A program made the position numbers and the translations under genes. This document shows, piece by piece, positions 9,375 through 27,932 of a stretch of DNA of 41,108 nt. This DNA comes from Oscillospiraceae bacterium. GTDB taxonomy: Bacteria > Bacillota > Clostridia > Oscillospirales > Ruminococcaceae. The notes below the pieces were generated by a model. The model worked only from the letters and a program-made list of their open reading frames with translations. It had not been told where the DNA came from and did no database searches. The stretch covers positions 1-41,108 of the forward strand of contig JAFXIC010000026.1 of NCBI GenBank assembly GCA_017533485.1. The letters are read 5' to 3'. How positions within the stretch are numbered: the first letter of the stretch is position 1; each line of letters opens with the position of its first letter.

Positions 9375-11672
9375 TTAATCCGTTTCCGCATCCGTTACCG
9401 TAATGCCGTCTTCTGCCGCACGAATATGCAGCGACTTTCCTTTCATCGTACCGTTGATGATACACGAGGCAATCGGATCCTCCACATGATCGCGCAGTAC
9501 ACGGCGGATATCACGCGCACCATACTTCTGACCATGTGCTTTTTCTGCAATCCAGCACAGTGATTTCTCATCCCAGTCGAGAATGATATTCTGTTCCGCA
9601 AGCGCTTCCGCCATTTCTCGCAGCATCAGATCTGCAATCTTCGCATAATCCTCCACCGTCAGCGGCTTAAAGACGATAATTTCATCCACACGTCCCACAA
9701 ATTCCGGGCGCAGGAATTCTTTCAGCGACTTCATTGCTTTCTCACGGGAAATATCCTCCTCGGTGCGGTTGAAGCCGACACCTGTGGATTTATCGGTGCT
9801 TCCGGCGTTCGAGGTCATCACGATAATCGTGTTTTCGAAATTCACCGTTCTGCCCTGTGCGTCATTGATATTACCCTCATCAAGAATTTGCAGCAGCAGG
9901 TTCATGACATCGGGGTGTGCTTTTTCGATCTCGTCGAACAGAATCACAGAATACGGTCTGCGGCGCACCTTTTCGGTGAGCTGACCGGCTTCGTCATATC
10001 CGACATATCCCGGAGGCGAGCCGATCATTCTCGAAACGGCGTGCTTTTCCATATATTCCGTCATATCCAGTCGGATCAGCGGTTCGGTCGAATCGAACAG
10101 CTCCGATGACAGCACTTTCACAAGCTCGGTTTTACCGACACCGGTCGGGCCGACAAAGATAAAGGATGCCGGTCTGCGGCGTTTGCTGAGACGGACGCGT
10201 GTCCGCTTAATCGCAGACGCAAGTGCTTCAATCGCTTCCTCCTGACCGATGACCTTTTCGGAGAGCCGTTTGGAGAGACCCTGAAGCTTGACAAATTCTG
10301 TTTCCTCAATCTTATTGGCAGGAATTCCGGTCCAAAGTTCAATCACGTGTGCGAGATCGGAAGCTTCCACATGAACCTCCTCCGCAATTTTCCGGACTTC
10401 CTTTTCACGCTCCCGAAGACGGATCATTTCACCCTTACGCTCCGCAAGCTTTTCATAATCGGGATTCACATCCGATTCGATACCGTCAATTTCTTCCTGT
10501 TTCTCGGCAATCTGTTTCGCAAGAATATCCACCTCGCCAAGCTCCGGATGGCTGATACTCGCATACGCACAGCTTTCATCCAGCAGGTCGATTGCTTTAT
10601 CGGGCAGGAATCTGTCGGTAATATAACGCTCCGAAAGCACTGCGCATAACCGCAGCAGATCGGGGGCAATATGAATCCGATGATATTCCTCATAGTAACG
10701 AGCGATTCCGTTCAAAATCGAAATCGTATCCTCGACAGTCGGTTCCTCTACCTTCACCGGCTGGAATCTGCGCTCCAGTGCGCCGTCCTTTTCGATATAT
10801 TTCCGGTATTCGGTAAAGGTTGTCGCACCAATCACCTGTACCTCACCGCGAGACAGTGCAGGCTTTAAGATATTTGCGGCATTCATCGAGCCTTCCGCGT
10901 CACCCGTACCGACCAGATTATGCACCTCGTCGATGAACAGGATGATATTCCCCTGCTCCTTGACCTCCTGCACAAGTCCCTTGACACGGCTTTCGAACTG
11001 ACCGCGGAACTGTGTACCGGCGACCAATGCCGTGAGATCCAGCAGGTAGATTTTCTTATCTCTGAGGTGATACGGGACATTTCCTTCCGCAATTCTGAGA
11101 GCGATGCCCTCCGCGATCGCAGTCTTACCAACACCCGGTTCACCAATCAGACAGGGATTATTTTTCTGACGTCTGGAAAGAATCTGAACGACGCGTGCGA
11201 TTTCACGGTCACGCCCGATAATCCGATCCAGCTTCCCCTCCTCTGCACGCAGACTGAGGTTCGTACAGTAGGAATCGAGAAATTTCAGTTCTTTTTTCTG
11301 TGCCTTATCCTTTTTCTTCTGTTTTGCACGATCTTTCGCATCCGGATTGCTGTTCTTATCATCCTCCGGATTGGATGGCTGTTCGGATTCGACCGAATTA
11401 TCATTGCGGAAGAGCTTCTGGATGAAGGAAGGCATTGTGCTTGCGCCGCCCATTTCAAAGGCATCGCCGTCCATCAGCCCCATCATCTGGTCGCTCATCT
11501 GTTCGACATCTTCATCGCTCAGTCCCATATGCTCCATATACTCCGCGACCTGCGGGATATTCATTTTCTTGGCGCATACAAGACAAAAGCCTTCATTCTT
11601 CTTTTCGTTGCCCTGCATTGAGGTCACAAAGACAACGGCGGGACGTTTCTTACATTTGCTACATAAAACCAT
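9375..11672 (-). CDS. clpE: ClpE-type ATP-dependent protease ATPase subunit
   Basis: Unfoldase that feeds substrates to ClpP. The 765-residue protein lacks the usual Clp_N double repeat. It begins instead with a ClpE-type zinc finger (Cys4, Cys7, Cys30, Cys33), then a charged low-complexity linker. AAA domain 1 has Walker A GEPGVGKT (177-184) and [12 protein letters not shown]-like coiled segment ([24 protein letters not shown], split by eye) follows. AAA domain 2 has Walker A GPTGVGKT (508-515). The ClpP-docking tripeptide VGF lies at 632-634. The ribosome site before the ATG is weak. No CtsR-type or CIRCE repeat was seen in the 80-bp gap upstream, so stress control is not evident from sequence. 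Confidence 0.92.
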
Positions 11673-17498: not shown

Positions 17499-18362
17499 TT
17501 ATTTCTCCCAGATTGCTGTCGCACCACAGGGCAGAGCAGCACCGGCGAGTGCGACCGGAAGTCCGATTTCATCCGCCGAAACACTGCCGCCGAATCTCGG
17601 CACCAGCAGCGCATTCAACAGATATCCCATGACAGACGGTGAAAGTCCCGTGGTATAGCTGTTGAGCAGAAAGAACAGCGGATCCTCCGAAAGAATATCC
17701 ATGCACGCTTCCACCAGCGGATAGATACAGTTTTCCAGCTTCCAGATTTCACCCGACGGGCCTCTGCCATAGCTGGGCGGATCCATAATAATCGCGTCAT
17801 AGGTTTTCCCTCTGCGGGCTTCTCTGCGGATGAATTTCTCACAGTCATCCACAATCCATCGGATCGGCTTTTCTGTCAGTCCGGATGCTGCGGCGTTTTC
17901 TCTCGCCCACTGCACCATTCCCTTTGCCGCATCCACATGACAGACCTCTGCGCCTGCCGCAGCACACGCAAGCGTTGCGCCGCCGGTATACGCGAATAAG
18001 TTCAGCACACGAACCGGTCTTCCCGCATTGCGGATTTTTTCTGTCATCCAGTCCCAGTTGACAGCCTGTTCGGGGAAAAGTCCCGTATGTTTAAAGCCGG
18101 TCGGCCGGACAATAAACTGAAGATCCCGATAACGGATGTTCCAGCTCTCCGGCGGCATTTTCCGATATTCCCATGAACCGCCGCCGCTTTTGCTGCGGTG
18201 GTAGTGGCCGTCCGCCTTTTCCCATTGCGGAGAAAGCTTCGGGGTCTGCCAGATGACCTGTGGATCGGGGCGGATCAGGATCACATTCCCCCATCGCTCC
18301 AGCCGTTCTCCACAGGATGTATCCAGAAGGCGGTAATCCGCCCAATGTTCTGATGCTCTCAC
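17499..18362 (-). CDS. Class I SAM-dependent methyltransferase, RlmI/RlmK-like
   Basis: The protein is 287 residues from the chosen GTG. An N-terminal region (DYRLLDTSCGERLERWG, LIRPDPQVIW) precedes a Rossmann methyltransferase domain. Motif I is VLNLFAYTGGATLA, the acidic SAM-binding residue lies in VCHVDAAKG, and motif IV is DPPSYGRG. DPPS-type motif IV and the flanking GLFPEQAVNW resemble the C5-methyltransferases that act on 23S rRNA. The target base cannot be told from sequence. The GTG at 18362 lies 10 bases after the stop of the upstream gene and matches where family members begin. The frame is open further to an ATG at 18413 that would overlap the upstream gene. Confidence 0.85.
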   Translation of the reverse strand: MRASEHWADYRLLDTSCGERLERWGNVILIRPDPQVIWQTPKLSPQWEKADGHYHRSKSGGGSWEYRKMPPESWNIRYRDLQFIVRPTGFKHTGLFPEQAVNWDWMTEKIRNAGRPVRVLNLFAYTGGATLACAAAGAEVCHVDAAKGMVQWARENAAASGLTEKPIRWIVDDCEKFIRREARRGKTYDAIIMDPPSYGRGPSGEIWKLENCIYPLVEACMDILSEDPLFFLLNSYTTGLSPSVMGYLLNALLVPRFGGSVSADEIGLPVALAGAALPCGATAIWEK

Positions 18363-18372
18363 GTTTTTAATT

Positions 18373-19764
18373 TCAATCCTTCCGTATTTGCGGTTTTGCT
18401 GTATGTGCGGCATTCTGGCCGGTGCGGTTCCGGATCGTATCCGCAATCGTCACGGCATAGCGGTTAATCCGCTCAAAATCCCGTCCTTCCAGCAGTACCT
18501 GTATCAGCGGTTCCCGCGAATGCTCCCGCACCAGAATGCGGCCTTCGCTTCCGAGTGTGGTCTGACACTGGGAAACTGCTTTCACGATCTCCGGATCATT
18601 TTTCCAGATCTCACGCCATTTTTCTGATATTCTGACCGTCAGCGAAACCTGTGGGGCGTGTTCCATCACACTCGCAAGCTTGGAAAGCGGTTTTCCGGTA
18701 CGGTGCATCAGACAGCAAAGTCTGAGTGCGGTACAAAGCCCATCCGACGCCGGCATATCCGAGAAATACAGGTAGCCGCCGCGTTCGCCGCCCAATGACA
18801 GCCCTTCCTCGCGCATCCGTTCTGCGACAAAACGAGGCATCGGTTCCGTAATATGAACCGCCACGCCGTTTTTTTCTGCAAACCGCAGAAATCCGTGATT
18901 TGTCATCACGGTTGCCGCCACACCGGCTTTTCCGAGTGTTTTCTGTTTCAGCGCGTCCTGTGTCAATATCGCGAGAATCCGGTCGCCGTCAAGCAGCTTT
19001 CCATGTTCATCGACAGCCAGACAGCGTTCTCCGTTTCCATCAAACGCAAAACCTGCTGCACACTGATATTTTTTAACGCAGTCGAGCAGATCTCCGACCG
19101 ACATCACGCCGCAGTCATTGTTGATATTCGTACCGTCAGGCCGACAATTCAGCTCCAGTACCTCCATCCCGTATGCTGACAGCAACGGTTTCGCAATCTC
19201 GCTCAGCACGCCGTTTGCACAGTCTACTGCCACACGGATGGTTGTTTTTTTCCGCGGATCCGGATTCTTTTCCTGCAACATCCGAAGATAACGCTGCTGC
19301 GCGGCAGTATCGTGCGTAATCGTGCCGCAGGAACGATGGGATTTCGGGGGAACCTGAATTCCGCCGGGCATCATCGCTTCAATCCGGGTGAGCTGTTCCT
19401 CCGACATCGGCAGACCCTGCTTTGTCAGAATCCGCAGCCCCGAATATTCATAGCTGGACGTATCGGCAGTCAGTGCAAAGCCACAGTCGGCATTCTCCTC
19501 CGAAACCAGCAATGCCAGCGCAGAGGATGACAGCACGCCCAGACACACAGCATTGCCGCCGCCCGAACAGATCCCTGCACAAAGCGCCGACTCCAGTGCA
19601 TCCGCAGAACGTCTTGGGTCATGTCCAATATAAAAAACAGGCGGACGGCCACAGGTTCTGCCGATGACCTGCGCCGCAGCCCTGCCGATATGCAGCATCA
19701 GCTCACAGCTCAGTTCTGTCACGGCAATGCCGCGCAGTCCGTCCGATTTCAGGATTTTGCTCAT
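18373..19764 (-). CDS. Degenerate phosphohexomutase (GlmM/PMM-like), probable pseudoenzyme
   Basis: The 463-residue protein has the four-domain layout and normal length of the alpha-D-phosphohexomutase family, but the active site is almost wholly altered. The loop that normally reads SASHNP reads TADTSS (99-104), so the phosphorylated Ser is Asp101. The metal site DGDGDR reads DGNGER (242-247). The sugar loop GEQSGH reads GERGGY (326-331). The phosphate loop RPSGTEP reads REHSREP (413-419). The surrounding fold is well kept (SDGLRG, VDCANGV, ITEPMPRFV, SDGLCTAL, PLIQVLLEG), so it is not decaying randomly. It is unlikely to interconvert sugar phosphates and may bind or regulate instead. The ATG at 19764 has AGAGGA 7 bases upstream. 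It is not next to cdaA or cdaR, the usual glmM partners. Confidence 0.85.
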   Translation of the reverse strand: MSKILKSDGLRGIAVTELSCELMLHIGRAAAQVIGRTCGRPPVFYIGHDPRRSADALESALCAGICSGGGNAVCLGVLSSSALALLVSEENADCGFALTADTSSYEYSGLRILTKQGLPMSEEQLTRIEAMMPGGIQVPPKSHRSCGTITHDTAAQQRYLRMLQEKNPDPRKKTTIRVAVDCANGVLSEIAKPLLSAYGMEVLELNCRPDGTNINNDCGVMSVGDLLDCVKKYQCAAGFAFDGNGERCLAVDEHGKLLDGDRILAILTQDALKQKTLGKAGVAATVMTNHGFLRFAEKNGVAVHITEPMPRFVAERMREEGLSLGGERGGYLYFSDMPASDGLCTALRLCCLMHRTGKPLSKLASVMEHAPQVSLTVRISEKWREIWKNDPEIVKAVSQCQTTLGSEGRILVREHSREPLIQVLLEGRDFERINRYAVTIADTIRNRTGQNAAHTAKPQIRKD

Positions 19765-19778
19765 TTCTTCTTCCTCTT

Positions 19779-20306
19779 TCAGGAGCATACCTCGTAGGCA
19801 GTCAGCATTCTTCTGCCCTGTAAATAAGCATCGGGCGTTGTCACATATGCGTGCCCGACCCTATTGTATGCATTATATACATACAGCCTGCCCTGCTTTC
19901 GTTCCATACAGACCGTATGGATCGCAGAAAACAGCCGTCGTTTTGTCCAATATACATAGATGCAGCGATTCCCCGCTTCGAGTGCACGCCTCACATCATC
20001 AGGTCTGCGCAGCTTTTTCGATTCCAGCCCGAATTTCCGCATACAGCGTCCGAGTACAAAGGGATTTGTCCCCCAAAGCCCGAACAGCATGGCATATTTC
20101 CGCATACACGCTGCGACCTTAGGAAACGGCTGCGGCATTCCGGACAGCAGCAGCATATTATACACGGCAATCACTTCACAGCCGCATTTCCCGATTGTGC
20201 CAAGTCCGAATTTCATGCCTGATACCGCCCCCAGCGACTGACCATTCATCAGTTCATCGGAAAGCGGTATCGGATTGTAATCTGTTCGATTGTCTGAGCG
20301 GTTCAT
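19779..20306 (-). CDS. C39-like papain-fold protein, putative cysteine peptidase
   Basis: The function of this 175-residue protein is not certain. The segment GTIGKCGCEVIAVYNMLLLSG resembles the catalytic-Cys helix of C39-type and related papain-fold proteins, where a C-G-x segment precedes a helix (candidate nucleophile Cys41 or Cys43). His130 in FSAIHTV and Asn145 in YVYNAYN fit the later His and Asn/Asp positions. There is no signal peptide or membrane segment, so it would be cytoplasmic. AAAGGAG precedes the ATG. It sits 28 bases after ruvB and 14 bases before the phosphohexomutase-like gene, an unexpected insertion in a DNA-repair/housekeeping operon. An inactive structural relative is also possible. 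Confidence 0.65.
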   Translation of the reverse strand: MNRSDNRTDYNPIPLSDELMNGQSLGAVSGMKFGLGTIGKCGCEVIAVYNMLLLSGMPQPFPKVAACMRKYAMLFGLWGTNPFVLGRCMRKFGLESKKLRRPDDVRRALEAGNRCIYVYWTKRRLFSAIHTVCMERKQGRLYVYNAYNRVGHAYVTTPDAYLQGRRMLTAYEVCS

Positions 20307-20334: not shown

Positions 20335-21426
20335 TCACGATTCTTCCAGCATATCAGTCAGGGAAAACTGTTTCGGACGAATCTGTTCCTCCTGTACCGG
20401 ATAGCCGAGGTGTGCATACGCAAGTCCGGTCGCACATCTTCCGCGCGGCGTTCTTGCAAGCATTCCGAGCTGCATCAGATACGGCTCACAGACATCCTCC
20501 AGTGTAACCGCTTCCTCACCGATTGCGGAAGCAAGTGTTTCGAGTCCGACGGGGCCGCCGTGATATCCGCGGATCATCATATCGAGCATCCGGCGGTCCA
20601 GCTTATCCAGCCCCAGCGCATCAATTTCCAGACGTTCGAGCGCAAGTTTTGTTGTCTGTTCGTCGATCACGCCTTTTCCCATGACATCTGCAAAATCCCG
20701 GACTCTCCGGAGCAGACGGTTTGCAATACGGGGGGTTCCTCTCGAACGCTTCGCAAGCTCCATCGCACCATCCGCTTCACATGGGATATCAAGAATCATC
20801 GCACTTCTTCGGATAATATCACAAAGCTGCTCCGGGGTATAAAGCTCAAGTCTCTGTACAATTCCGAAGCGATCCCGCAGCGGCGGCGTCAGCTGTCCGG
20901 CACGTGTGGTTGCACCCACCAGCGTAAACGGCTGTAAATCGACACGGATACTGCGTGCAGAAGGGCCTTTTCCGATCATGATATCGAGGACTCTGTCTTC
21001 CATTGCGGGATAGAGGATTTCCTCGACTGCTCTGGAAAGGCGATGGATCTCGTCCACGAACAGCACATCGCCGCGGCCGAGATTGGTCAGCAGTGCTGCC
21101 AGATCGCCGGGCTTTTCGATGGCCGGACCGGACGTAACACGAAGATTGACGCCCATCTCATGTGCGATAATACCCGAAAGGGTTGTTTTACCGAGTCCCG
21201 GAGGACCGTAGAGCAATACATGGTCAAGCGGTTCCCCGCGTCTTCTTGCCGCCTCGATATAGACCGCAAGATTCTCCTTGACCTTTTCCTGACCGATATA
21301 ATCCTTCAGTTCCTTCGGACGAAGCGACAGTTCCATATCGCCGTCGATTGTGATGACCTCAGGAGAGGAAAGCCGCTCATATGCGTCCTGCGGCTCATAG
21401 ATTGCCGCGTCACCAGTCTGAATCAT
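20335..21426 (-). CDS. ruvB: Holliday junction branch migration helicase RuvB
   Basis: Hexameric motor that drives branch migration with RuvA. The 363-residue AAA+ protein has [18 protein letters not shown], Walker A GPPGLGKT (74-81), Walker B FVDEIHRL (123-130), sensor 1 LVGATTRAG and LRDRFG. The C-terminal winged-helix domain includes RRMLDMMI and VEPYL-like [13 protein letters not shown] lies before the ATG. It is in an operon with ruvC and ruvA but separated from ruvA by an SseB-like gene. Confidence 0.97.
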
Positions 21427-23583: not shown

Positions 23584-25824
23584 TTACAGCAGCATCTGAC
23601 CGGCAATTTCCATATCTTTTGCCATACCGCCGGCGACAGGAATATTCTTTACGATATATTTCTGCCACTGCTCCGTCTGTTCGGGGGTGAGCGCGGCAGC
23701 ATATTCAAGCTTTGCGCCCTTGGCTTTCAGCGTCATGACCTGCACACCGATGCTGTCGCGTGTTGTTTTCGGCATCAGCATCGCACTGTTGAACACAAGC
23801 GCCCTGCCATTGCTTGCGCGCAGCAGAATATTCGCTTCCTCCGGAAGATGGATGACCGCAACCAGCGGTGATTTATCGGAATATGCATTCGCAAGCTTCT
23901 TGCGGTTTGTCTTCGTTTCATAAGCGGATACCGGCACTTTCGCGATTTTTCCGTTTTCAAAACAAAACAGCAGATAACCGCTGTAATCGCCTGCCGCAAC
24001 CAGATGCTTCACACTCTCGCCCTCGTCAAATCCAAGCTTCACCGGTACATAATCACCCAGCACACTCGCTTTGGATGCGGCAAAGACATTCGCACGCGCC
24101 TTATAGACCTGTGCACGGTTTGTGAAGAACAAAAGCTCGGTGCGATTGGTGGTATCAATCTGCTGACGCAGGACATCCCCTTCTTTTAGCTTCTGCTCAC
24201 CGCTCATGCGCAGACTCTGGGGCGTAATCTTCTTGAAATAGCCCTCGGCAGAAAGGAAGAGATGTACCGGATCATCGGGAATATCCAGCTCCGGTTCTTC
24301 CTCCGGAATATCCGCTGCATCATAGAACATGGTTTTCCGCGGCTGGCCATACTTTACGGCAACTGCCTTCAGTTCCTCTGTCATGATTCTGCGGATTTTC
24401 CGAACATCCTTCAGGATCCCGTCCATTTCCTCGATATCCTTCCGCAGCTGTTCGATTTCCTTTGTGCGGTTCAGGATATATTCACGGTTCAAATGGCGCA
24501 GCTTAATTTCCGCGACATACTCCGCCTGGAGCTTATCAATCGCAAATCCGATCATCAGGTTCGATACAACCTCCGATTCCTCCTCGGTTTCACGAATGAT
24601 CCGGATTGCCTTATCAATATCCAGCAATATCTTCTCCAGACCTTCTAAGAGATGCAGCTTATCCATCTTCTTATGCAGGTCAAAATAAACTCTGCGGCGG
24701 ATGCATTCCGTCCGGAACGCGACCCATTCCTCCAGAATCTCCCGCACACCCATAACCTTCGGCATTCCTGCAATCAGGATATTGAAATTACAGGAAACAC
24801 TGTCCTGAAGCGGTGTCATCCGGTAAAGCTTCTGCATCAGGCGTTCGGGGTCTGTACCGCGTTTCAGGTCGATTGTCAGCTTTAAGCCGTTGATATCCGT
24901 TTCGTCACGCATATATGAAATTTCCCGTATCTTTCCCGCTTTCACAAGCTCCACGATCTTTTCCATAATCGCTTCGATGGTAGTGGAATAGGGAATTTCC
25001 GTAATCTCGATACAGTTCGCGTCCTTATCATAATTCCATTTCGAACGCAGCTTGACGCTTCCGCGTCCGGTATCATAAATCCGCTGGAGCTCCGTTTCGT
25101 CATACATCAGGAAGCCGCCGGTCGGAAAATCAGGGCCTTTGAGGGTAGAAAGGAGGTCATGATCGGGATTTTTCAGATACGCAATCGTGGTTTCACATAC
25201 CTCCGCCAGATTGAACGGACAGACATTGCTCGCCATAGATACCGCGATACCCACATTTGCATTCACCAGAACTGACGGATAGGTTGCCGGAAGGAGTGTG
25301 GGTTCTGTTGTCGTATTATCATAATTCGGCGTGAAATCCACCGTATCCTTGTCGATATCCCGAAACAGCTCGCCTGCGATTGCTTCGAGCTTTACTTCGG
25401 TATATCGCGGTGCGGCATATGCCATATCACGGCTATACGCCTTTCCGAAATTGCCCTTGCTGTCCACGTACGGATGCAGCAGCGATTCATTGCCGCGTGC
25501 CATACGAACCATTGTTTCATAAATCGCCGCGTCACCATGGGGATTGAGCCGCATCGTCTGGCCGACCACATTGGCGGATTTTGTACGTGCGCCGCTCAGC
25601 AGCCCCATCTTATACATCGTATAAAGCAGCTTACGGTGGGAGGGCTTAAAGCCGTCGATCTCCGGCAGCGCACGGGAAACAATTGCGCTCATTGCATAGG
25701 GCATAAAGTTCTTACGGAGCGTTTCGGTGATCCGCTCCTCAACCATTAACCCTGCACCCTCGATATATGCGTTCGAAGGATTCGCATTCTTCGGACGTTC
25801 TTTATTTTTTCTGGGCTTTGCCAT
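23584..25824 (-). CDS. parC: DNA topoisomerase IV subunit A (ParC-type)
   Basis: DNA-cleaving subunit of a type IIA topoisomerase. The 746-residue protein has the 5Y-CAP domain with SRALPEIDGFKPSHRKLLYTM. The quinolone-contact helix follows (NPHGDAAIYETMVRM), then the catalytic Tyr in AAPRYTE. The GyrA/ParC C-terminal region is short and has no clear GyrA box (QRRGGKG-like), so decatenation by topoisomerase IV is more likely than supercoiling. At the position of the usual quinolone-binding Ser there is Ala. It lies 29 bases after parE. It is a divergent clostridial paralogue; whether gyrA exists elsewhere cannot be seen here. Confidence 0.9.
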   Translation of the reverse strand: MAKPRKNKERPKNANPSNAYIEGAGLMVEERITETLRKNFMPYAMSAIVSRALPEIDGFKPSHRKLLYTMYKMGLLSGARTKSANVVGQTMRLNPHGDAAIYETMVRMARGNESLLHPYVDSKGNFGKAYSRDMAYAAPRYTEVKLEAIAGELFRDIDKDTVDFTPNYDNTTTEPTLLPATYPSVLVNANVGIAVSMASNVCPFNLAEVCETTIAYLKNPDHDLLSTLKGPDFPTGGFLMYDETELQRIYDTGRGSVKLRSKWNYDKDANCIEITEIPYSTTIEAIMEKIVELVKAGKIREISYMRDETDINGLKLTIDLKRGTDPERLMQKLYRMTPLQDSVSCNFNILIAGMPKVMGVREILEEWVAFRTECIRRRVYFDLHKKMDKLHLLEGLEKILLDIDKAIRIIRETEEESEVVSNLMIGFAIDKLQAEYVAEIKLRHLNREYILNRTKEIEQLRKDIEEMDGILKDVRKIRRIMTEELKAVAVKYGQPRKTMFYDAADIPEEEPELDIPDDPVHLFLSAEGYFKKITPQSLRMSGEQKLKEGDVLRQQIDTTNRTELLFFTNRAQVYKARANVFAASKASVLGDYVPVKLGFDEGESVKHLVAAGDYSGYLLFCFENGKIAKVPVSAYETKTNRKKLANAYSDKSPLVAVIHLPEEANILLRASNGRALVFNSAMLMPKTTRDSIGVQVMTLKAKGAKLEYAAALTPEQTEQWQKYIVKNIPVAGGMAKDMEIAGQMLL

Positions 25825-25853
25825 AGTCTCATAATCCTTTCTGACGGGTATGT

Positions 25854-27836
25854 TCAGCTGATATCCGCGAGATCCAGATATTCTCCGCCGTGTTCCGCGA
25901 TATAATCCTTACGCGCCTGTAAATTATCTCCCAGCAGCATATCAAACATTTCTGCGGTTGCCGCGGCATCCTCCGGCGTGACACGGATAATCCGGCGCGT
26001 TTCCGGATTCATCGTTGTCAGCGCCATCATTTCCGCTTCGTTCTCACCAAGTCCCTTGGAACGCTGGAGCGTATATTTCTGACCTTCCAGCATATTCAGG
26101 ATCTTGACGCGTTCCTTTTCGTCGTATGCAAAATACGTGCGGTCTTTCGTCGTAATCTCAAACAGCGGCGATTCCGCAATATAAACATAGCCCTCCCGGA
26201 TCAGCGTCGGCGCAAGCCGGTACAGCATCGTCAGAATCAGCGTGCGGATATGGAAACCGTCCTCGTCGGCATCCGTACAGATGACAATCTTATTCCAGCG
26301 AAGATTGTCCAGCGAAAATGTCGCAAGTTCTTTATTTGCCTTCGCCGTAACCTCAACGCCGCAGCCCAGTACCTTTACCAGATCGGTGATGATTTCACTC
26401 TTGAAGATACGGCTGTAATCCGCTTTCAGACAGTTCAGAATCTTTCCGCGCACCGGAATCACCGCCTGAAACTCCGCATCCCGCGCCATCTTAACAGAAC
26501 CGAGTGCGGAATCACCCTCCACGATATATACCTCGCGGCGTGACGTATCCTTCGAACGACAGTCCACAAATTTCGGCACCATGTTCGAAATATCCAGATT
26601 TCCCGAAAGCTTCTTCTTGAGGTTCAGTCTTGTCCGCTCCGCATTCTCACGGCTCCGCTTATTGACAAGCACCTGTTCGGCGATTCTTGCCGCATCATCC
26701 GGATTTTCCGTGAAATAGACCTCCAGCTGATGCTTTAAGAAATCGGTCATCGCTTCATAGATAAAACGGTTGGTGATTGCTTTTTTGGTCTGGTTCTCAT
26801 AGGATGCAATCGTTGAGAACGAGGAGGATATCAGCACCAGACAGTCCTGGATATCCGCAAAGGAAATCTTACTCTCATTCTTCTGGTAGCGGTTATTCGT
26901 TTTCAGGAATGCATCAATCTGGGCGGTGAACGCACGCTTTACCGCATCATCCGGTGAACCGCCATGCTCCAGAAAGCTGGAGTTATGGTAATATTCAATC
27001 CGCTGGACTGTATTGGAGAAAGCAACCGCAACCGATAGCTTCAGCTTATATTCCTCACGGTCTGCACTGTCTCTGCCTTTACGGTCGGTCTGCCAGAACT
27101 GTACCGGCGTCATGCCCTTTCCGTCCAGAATTTCATTGGCATAGTCCGTAATTCCGTTTTCATAGAAATATTCCGTTGTATCGAAGCTGTTTTTCGAAAT
27201 CTCAACCCGATATACGAACAGAAGATTGGGATTGACAACAGCCTGACGCTTCAGGACATCCCGAAACCACTCGTCCGGTATCATGGTATCGACAAATACA
27301 CTCCGATCGGGCTTCCAGCGTGTTTTCGTACCGGTCTGGCGGCGGGAAGTCGGCGCCTTATGGAGTCCGCCGATATTCTCGCCCTGTTCGAAATGCAGCG
27401 TATACTGCTGACCGTCGCGGACGACCGTGACATCCATATACTCCGACGCGAACTGTGTCGCACAGAGTCCCAGTCCGTTCAGTCCCAGGGAATAGGCATA
27501 CGTATCCGCATTCGAATCATATTTTCCGCCCGCGTACAGCTCACAGTACACAAGCTCCCAGTTATACCGTTCCTCATTCGGATTCCAGTCCACCGGACAG
27601 CCTCTTCCGAAGTCCTCAACTTCAATCGAACCATCCAGATATTTTGTAATCATAATCTTTTTTCCGAAGCCTGCACGCGCTTCGTCCACCGAGTTGGTAA
27701 TGACCTCAAAGACCGAATGGGCACAGCCGTCCAGTCCATCCGAGCCAAAAATGACTGCCGGACGCTTCCGGACCTTATCGGGGCCTTTGAGCATCGTAAT
27801 ACTTTCGTTGCCATATTCCGGTGTTTTCTTCGCCAT
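25854..27836 (-). CDS. parE: DNA topoisomerase IV subunit B (ParE-type)
   Basis: ATPase subunit partner of ParC. The 660-residue protein contains the GHKL ATP site (FEVITNSVDEARAG, VEDFGRGCPVDW, SLGLNGLG) and the transducer domain. The TOPRIM domain has EGDSALGSVKMARD and metal-binding DADEDGFHIRTL, and the C-terminal RSKGLGENEAEMM completes it. In GRGCPV the usual Ile/Met after GRG is Cys. The ATG at 27836 is chosen since AAAGGA precedes it; the open frame extends 32 codons upstream across the promoter. Promoter at 27904-27932. Confidence 0.92.
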   Translation of the reverse strand: MAKKTPEYGNESITMLKGPDKVRKRPAVIFGSDGLDGCAHSVFEVITNSVDEARAGFGKKIMITKYLDGSIEVEDFGRGCPVDWNPNEERYNWELVYCELYAGGKYDSNADTYAYSLGLNGLGLCATQFASEYMDVTVVRDGQQYTLHFEQGENIGGLHKAPTSRRQTGTKTRWKPDRSVFVDTMIPDEWFRDVLKRQAVVNPNLLFVYRVEISKNSFDTTEYFYENGITDYANEILDGKGMTPVQFWQTDRKGRDSADREEYKLKLSVAVAFSNTVQRIEYYHNSSFLEHGGSPDDAVKRAFTAQIDAFLKTNNRYQKNESKISFADIQDCLVLISSSFSTIASYENQTKKAITNRFIYEAMTDFLKHQLEVYFTENPDDAARIAEQVLVNKRSRENAERTRLNLKKKLSGNLDISNMVPKFVDCRSKDTSRREVYIVEGDSALGSVKMARDAEFQAVIPVRGKILNCLKADYSRIFKSEIITDLVKVLGCGVEVTAKANKELATFSLDNLRWNKIVICTDADEDGFHIRTLILTMLYRLAPTLIREGYVYIAESPLFEITTKDRTYFAYDEKERVKILNMLEGQKYTLQRSKGLGENEAEMMALTTMNPETRRIIRVTPEDAAATAEMFDMLLGDNLQARKDYIAEHGGEYLDLADIS

Positions 27837-27903
27837 GGTATTGATCCTTTCTCTGCCCCGTTCCGTCGGCGGCAGAACCTTCGTTTTCCAGACATACAGT
27901 ATT

Positions 27904-27932
27904 ATTGTAGCATATTCTTCCCGAAATTGCAA
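27904..27932 (-). promoter_or_regulatory. Promoter of parE-parC
   Basis: Minus-strand TTGCAA (27927-27932), 17-bp spacer, TACAAT (27904-27909), about 68 bases upstream of the parE start codon. It lies just beyond the terminator of the preceding gene. Confidence 0.75.

Follow-up and report, generated by a model that had tools for sequence, protein, structure and literature searches.

GlmM, the phosphoglucosamine mutase, is an essential cell-wall enzyme for which a non-catalytic role has a precedent: in Bacillus it forms a complex with CdaA (PDB 7ojs, 7olh), as presented in part of PMC8573169. According to the available portion of PMC6797236, B. subtilis glmM is essential and no deletion was obtained even when PgcA, or PgcA with the G47S change, was overexpressed; the explanation its authors prefer is a second essential function of GlmM. 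The same text credits B. subtilis PgcA with phosphoglucosamine mutase activity in vitro, comparable to the highest values reported for GlmM. It also cites published work in which E. coli Pgm failed to rescue a thermosensitive E. coli glmM mutant. Vertebrate PGM5 (aciculin) is a superfamily member kept without mutase activity, and the abstract of PMC7761743 describes it as keeping its active site and binding glucose-1-phosphate. Our searches of the open-access literature found no description of a dead bacterial GlmM.

Here we describe a catalytically degenerate GlmM orthologue (pseudo-GlmM) encoded in a 41,108-nucleotide stretch of Oscillospiraceae DNA, the window (contig JAFXIC010000026.1). 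Like GlmM (TIGR01455; B. subtilis 7ojr, S. aureus 6gyz), it has the four-domain fold over its full length, with 32–33% identity, and it lies at the same genomic locus as the glmM of sister genera. Unlike GlmM, it lacks the catalytic Ser as well as residues of the metal (Asp), general-base and phosphate-loop sets, and it scores below the equivalog cut-off. It would resemble PGM5 in being retained without mutase activity. It differs from PGM5 in that degeneration has reached the catalytic and phosphate loops themselves, and in that it is the GlmM orthologue of its lineage, not a paralogue that accompanies an active enzyme. PgcA, which shares the superfamily and is the presumed supplier of the lost activity (compare PMC6797236, in part), contrasts with pseudo-GlmM in its length of about 578 aa, in having all loops intact and in belonging to a distinct subfamily. 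The reading we favor, at a probability of roughly 60%, is that a vertically inherited glmM at the ancestral ruvB locus has lost catalysis and that purifying selection maintains its product in a non-catalytic role.

The gene, its product and its locus

The features of the window on which the analysis turns are as follows.

18373..19764, minus strand: pseudo-GlmM, catalytically degenerate GlmM orthologue of 463 aa (from the open reading frame, loops, domains, model and 26 genus orthologues)
19453..19470, minus strand: loop I, phosphoserine loop, TADTSS where the intact form is SASHNP (alignment to GlmM)
19024..19041, minus strand: loop II, metal loop, DGNGER where the intact form is DGDADR/DGDGDR (alignment to GlmM)
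18772..18789, minus strand: loop III, sugar loop, GERGGY where the intact form is GEQSGH (alignment to GlmM)
18508..18528, minus strand: loop IV, phosphate loop, REHSREP where the intact form is RxSGTEP (alignment to GlmM)
19779..20306, minus strand: cl11, 175-aa C39/papain-fold cysteine-peptidase-like protein, ending 15 nt before the pseudo-GlmM start
20335..21426, minus strand: ruvB, flanking the ancestral glmM locus on its upstream side
17499..18446, minus strand: SAM-dependent (RNA-type) methyltransferase, conserved downstream neighbor, start uncertain

The pseudo-GlmM reading frame is unbroken over 18373..19788 (minus strand). Translation probably starts at the ATG at 19764, and because this codon has a GAGG-type ribosome site ahead of it and lies 15 nt past the end of the upstream gene, the extent 18373–19764 proposed in an earlier sequence-only reading is right. 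The four loop sequences in that reading are likewise exact. Asp101, in the numbering of the 463-aa protein, aligns with Ser100 of B. subtilis GlmM. The protein lacks the catalytic Ser, 2 of the 3 metal Asps (the triad reads D-N-E) and the His of the sugar loop, and its phosphate loop is abnormal.

The length is normal and the fold preserved, as had been claimed. All 4 Pfam PGM_PMM domains score above their cut-offs, and the best NCBIfam match is glmM TIGR01455, at 343.7 bits against an equivalog cut-off of 447.55. The AlphaFold2 model, built with 24 genus sequences (pLDDT 89.4, pTM 0.86), is predicted to be GlmM-like throughout and superposes over its whole length on GlmM crystal structures (TM 0.90/0.94 with 3pdk and 0.90/0.93 with 7ojr). 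The WKND motif of domain IV was considered as a new binding site and rejected, since intact ruv-locus relatives carry WKND too.

In sister genera the gene order is ruvC, ruvA, ruvB, intact glmM, methyltransferase, ecfA1, ecfA2 and ecfT (L149–L153, L230–L233), with truA and DUF5711 also part of it in most. Pseudo-GlmM fills the glmM slot of this ruvC-ruvA-ruvB-glmM-methyltransferase-ecf locus and, because it occupies the ancestral position, is the lineage's own glmM and no extra paralogue. A 4-gene tree (RuvB, methyltransferase, EcfA1 and EcfT; 41 loci) places genus g117, whose GlmM is intact, as sister of the window's genus with support 84; genus g20 branches next, with a weak support of 51. 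Elsewhere in the window, we note a gyrA/gyrB-like topoisomerase pair near ruvC (23584–27932, minus strand) and a ClpA/ClpB-like Clp ATPase (9375–11672, minus strand), both under the cut-offs of the models listed.

Conservation within the genus and the source of mutase activity

Protein searches recovered pseudo-GlmM orthologues in 26 of 30 genus genomes. Three of the remaining assemblies are 58–76% complete (G013, G014, G026); the fourth, G022, was considered as a real gene loss, a reading we rejected since ruvB was not found in that assembly either, and the locus is probably missing from the assembly. The equivalents of Ser100, His101, Lys118, Asp244 and His329 are gone in 26/26 orthologues, and those of Ser412 and Thr414 in all 24 with data, 2 of the 26 rows being cut by contig ends and lacking data for 3 of the 14 scored residues. 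Between 2 and 7 of these 14 catalytic or binding residues are left. The orthologue alignment that the sequence-only reading proposed as a check thus shows altered loops across the genus (26/26), and since every orthologue lacks catalytic residues, sequence error or recent decay in the window genome is excluded. The same reading took Asp101 for a mimic of phosphoserine. That idea is weak: the residue at the Ser position is Gly in 17 orthologues, against 6 with Asp and 3 with Glu. A phosphomimic at Asp101 is therefore not conserved, though an acid occurs at position 100 or 101 in 21/26.

Loss of the active site has been accompanied by constraint on the protein. Frames over the domain region are uninterrupted in the 24 orthologues not cut by contig ends, and dN/dS (Nei–Gojobori, own implementation) is 0.040–0.178 in 12/12 chosen genus pairs, with dS of 0.16–1.7. 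With the fold kept, residues lost and dN/dS low, the proposal of a conserved pseudoenzyme under purifying selection has held up. These values, together with retention in 26/30 genomes and incomplete assemblies among the remainder, argue against a functionless, decaying relic held by time and operon linkage alone. A relic would fit the faster evolution of pseudo-GlmM relative to RuvB (76% versus 96% identity between the window and G020), a point that also weighs against the reading we favor, and would fit two family-wide observations given below, namely the repeated loss of catalytic residues where a second GlmM exists and the relatives with no glmM at the locus; overall we consider it improbable.

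Low dN/dS is also compatible with a changed enzymatic activity, and pseudo-GlmM might still carry out the phosphoglucosamine mutase step of the cell, or have rebuilt its active site to serve as another kind of phosphosugar enzyme. Asp240 (26/26), Arg410 (24/24) and Arg245 (25/26) are nearly always kept, the acid at 100/101 is frequent, and the changed loops, too, remain conserved among genus members. Their conservation shows no excess, at 0.682 versus 0.633 for the rest of the protein (1150 of 5000 random block sets were as high), and loop I is the least conserved of them at 0.455. The 7 residues named above are gone in every orthologue with data, the substitutes at several lost catalytic positions differ from species to species, and the phosphate loop reads RERRDDA or similar in many orthologues, all of which speaks against a working mutase; we judge an enzymatic role unlikely. 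Compared with other canonical invariant sites, the active site of the genus orthologues has not been lost significantly more strongly (Fisher p 0.28; 11 kept and 21 lost of 32 active-site residues versus 33 and 36 of 69 other invariant sites), which counts against the favored explanation. In 18 other decayed copies, under a laxer threshold, the same test gives p 0.016.

The supply of the mutase step bears directly on this alternative. GlmS is over cut-off in 29/30 genus genomes and GlmU in 24/30, and their presence means that the step between them must be made. A PF02878 search of the 30 genomes found no second, intact GlmM, contrary to the expectation of the sequence-only reading; the matches are the degenerate GlmM and, in 26/30, a PgcA-type enzyme of about 578 aa (G023 has an additional fragment, a second PgcA-like piece). 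The sequence-only reading had held that absence of any other glmM would speak against a pseudoenzyme. No other glmM was indeed found in the 30 genomes; with active-site degeneration in all orthologues, we prefer to read this as PgcA supplying the catalysis. The genus PgcA has intact loops in 26/26, and the enzyme is thus at hand in most genomes, which further argues against pseudo-GlmM as the mutase. We consider that the chemistry has probably moved to PgcA: the conversion of GlcN-6-P to GlcN-1-P would be done by the one other superfamily enzyme seen.

Several observations pull the other way. In G001, G017, G018 and G028 (77–88% complete), the search detected no PgcA and no intact GlmM; this, like the presence of GlmS and GlmU without another GlmM in the genus, favors an enzymatic role, and it also speaks against the favored reading. 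No class-specific change was found in the PgcA substrate loop, which reads GTGGLRG in 26/26 genus proteins and in 12/12 relatives with intact GlmM; a specificity shift at the G47-equivalent residue was looked for in genus PgcA and not found. The unchanged loop also counts against the favored explanation, as does the failure of overexpressed PgcA to substitute for glmM in B. subtilis (PMC6797236, in the portion available). Because B. subtilis PgcA fails in vivo and the genus loop is unchanged, we infer replacement by PgcA rather than observe it.

In G022, pgcA lies directly after cdaA-cdaR (L138 6516–11328); in the other genus genomes compared, pgcA and cdaA-cdaR are on different contigs. In Bacillus it is glmM that sits after cdaA-cdaR.

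Decayed and intact copies across the family

GlmM is over cut-off in 125/148 genomes of the family, and several carry 2. In 7 of these (G048, G163, G125, G119, G135, G073 and G100), the copy at the ruv locus has degenerate loops and an intact GlmM with a GTDGFRG N-terminal loop lies elsewhere; the degenerate copy of G100 adjoins the methyltransferase, with ruvB on another contig. With congeners added, the ruv-locus copy is altered, retaining 3–12 of the 14 residues, in 18/18 genomes with a second GTDGFRG-type GlmM, a figure that describes a pattern rather than a random sample or an unbiased test, because low scores had partly guided the choice of genomes. The second GTDGFRG-type protein has 14 of 14 catalytic residues in the 18 genomes. 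The mildest decay, with 12 of 14 residues, is in G330. Conversely, the ruv-locus GlmM has 14 of 14 residues in 12/12 scored genomes without the GTDGFRG type. Both states occur within genus g91, where G205 and G314 are intact without the second type and G119, G264 and G355 are decayed with it. Where the second copy is of the ordinary kind, in G033 (in tandem) and G113, the ruv-locus copy is intact; of these 2 genomes, only G033 is among the 12 scored.

New here is the finding that, as judged from aligned residues, the ruv-locus GlmM of 6 other genera has lost catalytic residues too. On the 4-gene tree, whose support is uneven and from which g72 (G100) is absent, intact genera lie between the decayed groups g1, g20, g45, g91, g97 and g107, which suggests about 6 losses of catalytic residues at the ruv locus. 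The decayed copies of other genera have dN/dS of 0.139–0.247 in 7 of 9 pairs, the remaining 2 being saturated.

Retention of a decayed copy at this locus alongside a second, intact GlmM has happened repeatedly in related genera, and for this reason the dead protein may serve a second role of the ruvB-locus GlmM that predates catalytic loss, presumably one of binding. The broader proposal is that the ruvB-locus GlmM has an old non-catalytic function separable from catalysis, and that in several lineages a second GlmM or PgcA took over catalysis while the dead GlmM persisted because of the older function; we hold it tentatively, at slightly under even odds. Six family genomes stand against it and against the favored reading: in G089, G126, G101, G108, G109 and G149 (L341, L342, L346, L348, L349, L351) no glmM lies between ruvB and the methyltransferase, and no GlmM over cut-off was found in any of the 6, 2 of which are less than 90% complete. 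Since ruvB is followed directly by the methyltransferase, the putative second role would be dispensable in these genomes.

Mutase-like proteins were seen at G126:C44:143705–145087 and G059:C32:17799–19160, in frames of about 480–510 aa that score about 160 bits to GlmM; neither genome has a GlmM over cut-off.

Candidate partners and biological meaning

A dead GlmM would most likely act by binding a partner or ligand, as a scaffold or regulator. The sequence-only reading pointed to CdaA, with pseudo-GlmM as its regulator. There is a precedent, in that intact GlmM binds CdaA in several Firmicutes. In B. subtilis, GlmM D151, E154 and D195 contact CdaA Arg126, which is needed for binding, its change to Ala having abolished the interaction; alanine in place of the GlmM acids changed binding little or not at all (all from part of PMC8573169). 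CdaA was found in 30/30 genus genomes. Arg126 is replaced by Thr, Ser or Asn in 30/30 of these proteins, in contrast to the Bacillus complex, and of 57 family CdaAs found, 30 were aligned and a single one has Arg at 126. A basic residue lies one position earlier, at 125, in 26/30 genus CdaAs, for which reason another CdaA contact is conceivable. On the GlmM side, position 154 is acidic in 21/26 orthologues, D151 in 0/26 and D195 in 2/26; in the window protein D151/E154/D195 are H/A/A. Also unlike the Bacillus system, pseudo-GlmM lies outside the cda operon at the loci examined. With Arg126 in 0/30 genus CdaAs and the acids gone from the window protein, the CdaA proposal is unsupported, and we consider it very improbable.

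A positional candidate for the partner is the product of cl11, encoded just upstream. Its predicted model (pLDDT 81.6) resembles C39/papain-like peptidases in fold comparison, with 27 matches at E ≤0.001 (best 3.5e-5) that include the peptidase domains of PCAT1 and ComA; no Pfam match was obtained at E 0.001. Cys43, His130 and Asn145 are invariant in 24 sequences. Pseudo-GlmM might pair with cl11, for example as a binding or inhibitory partner. In the window, 15 nt separate the genes. Of the 17 named genus loci, 16 have cl11 between ruvB and pseudo-GlmM, the exception being a 4.4-kb contig, and the same position is seen in 7/7 g20 genomes. Against a pairing, only 8 of the 16 loci have the genes directly adjacent, the other 8 having 0.7–1.5 kb between them; in G276 the GlmM next to cl11 looks intact, as seen across 2 contig pieces; the cl11 homologue is broken over 3 frames in G024 (L040/L141, at about 10.1–10.7 kb in L141) where pseudo-GlmM is intact; and no cl11 match lies beside the decayed GlmM of g45, g91, g97 and g107. 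Nor was a fusion found: the 627- and 652-aa open reading frames of L214 and L052, considered as cl11/pseudo-GlmM fusions, were rejected, since their additional residues come from an overlapping open frame and cl11 is encoded in a different one. A functional link is possible; a physical or inhibitory partnership in particular seems a long shot. The idea that cl11 marks dead GlmM exclusively was rejected too, because of its position in G276 and the presence of cl11-like genes in 30/126 genera searched.

If the broader proposal is true, these genomes offer a natural series for studying separation of function in an essential cell-wall enzyme. The series bears on the second essential GlmM role proposed for B. 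subtilis (PMC6797236, in the portion available): nature has apparently separated catalysis from the dead GlmM, which makes the question testable with natural dead proteins. For annotation and metabolic models, a 'GlmM' label at the ruv locus is no evidence of mutase activity. In this genus of the rumen and gut, PgcA is the likely supplier of an essential cell-wall precursor.
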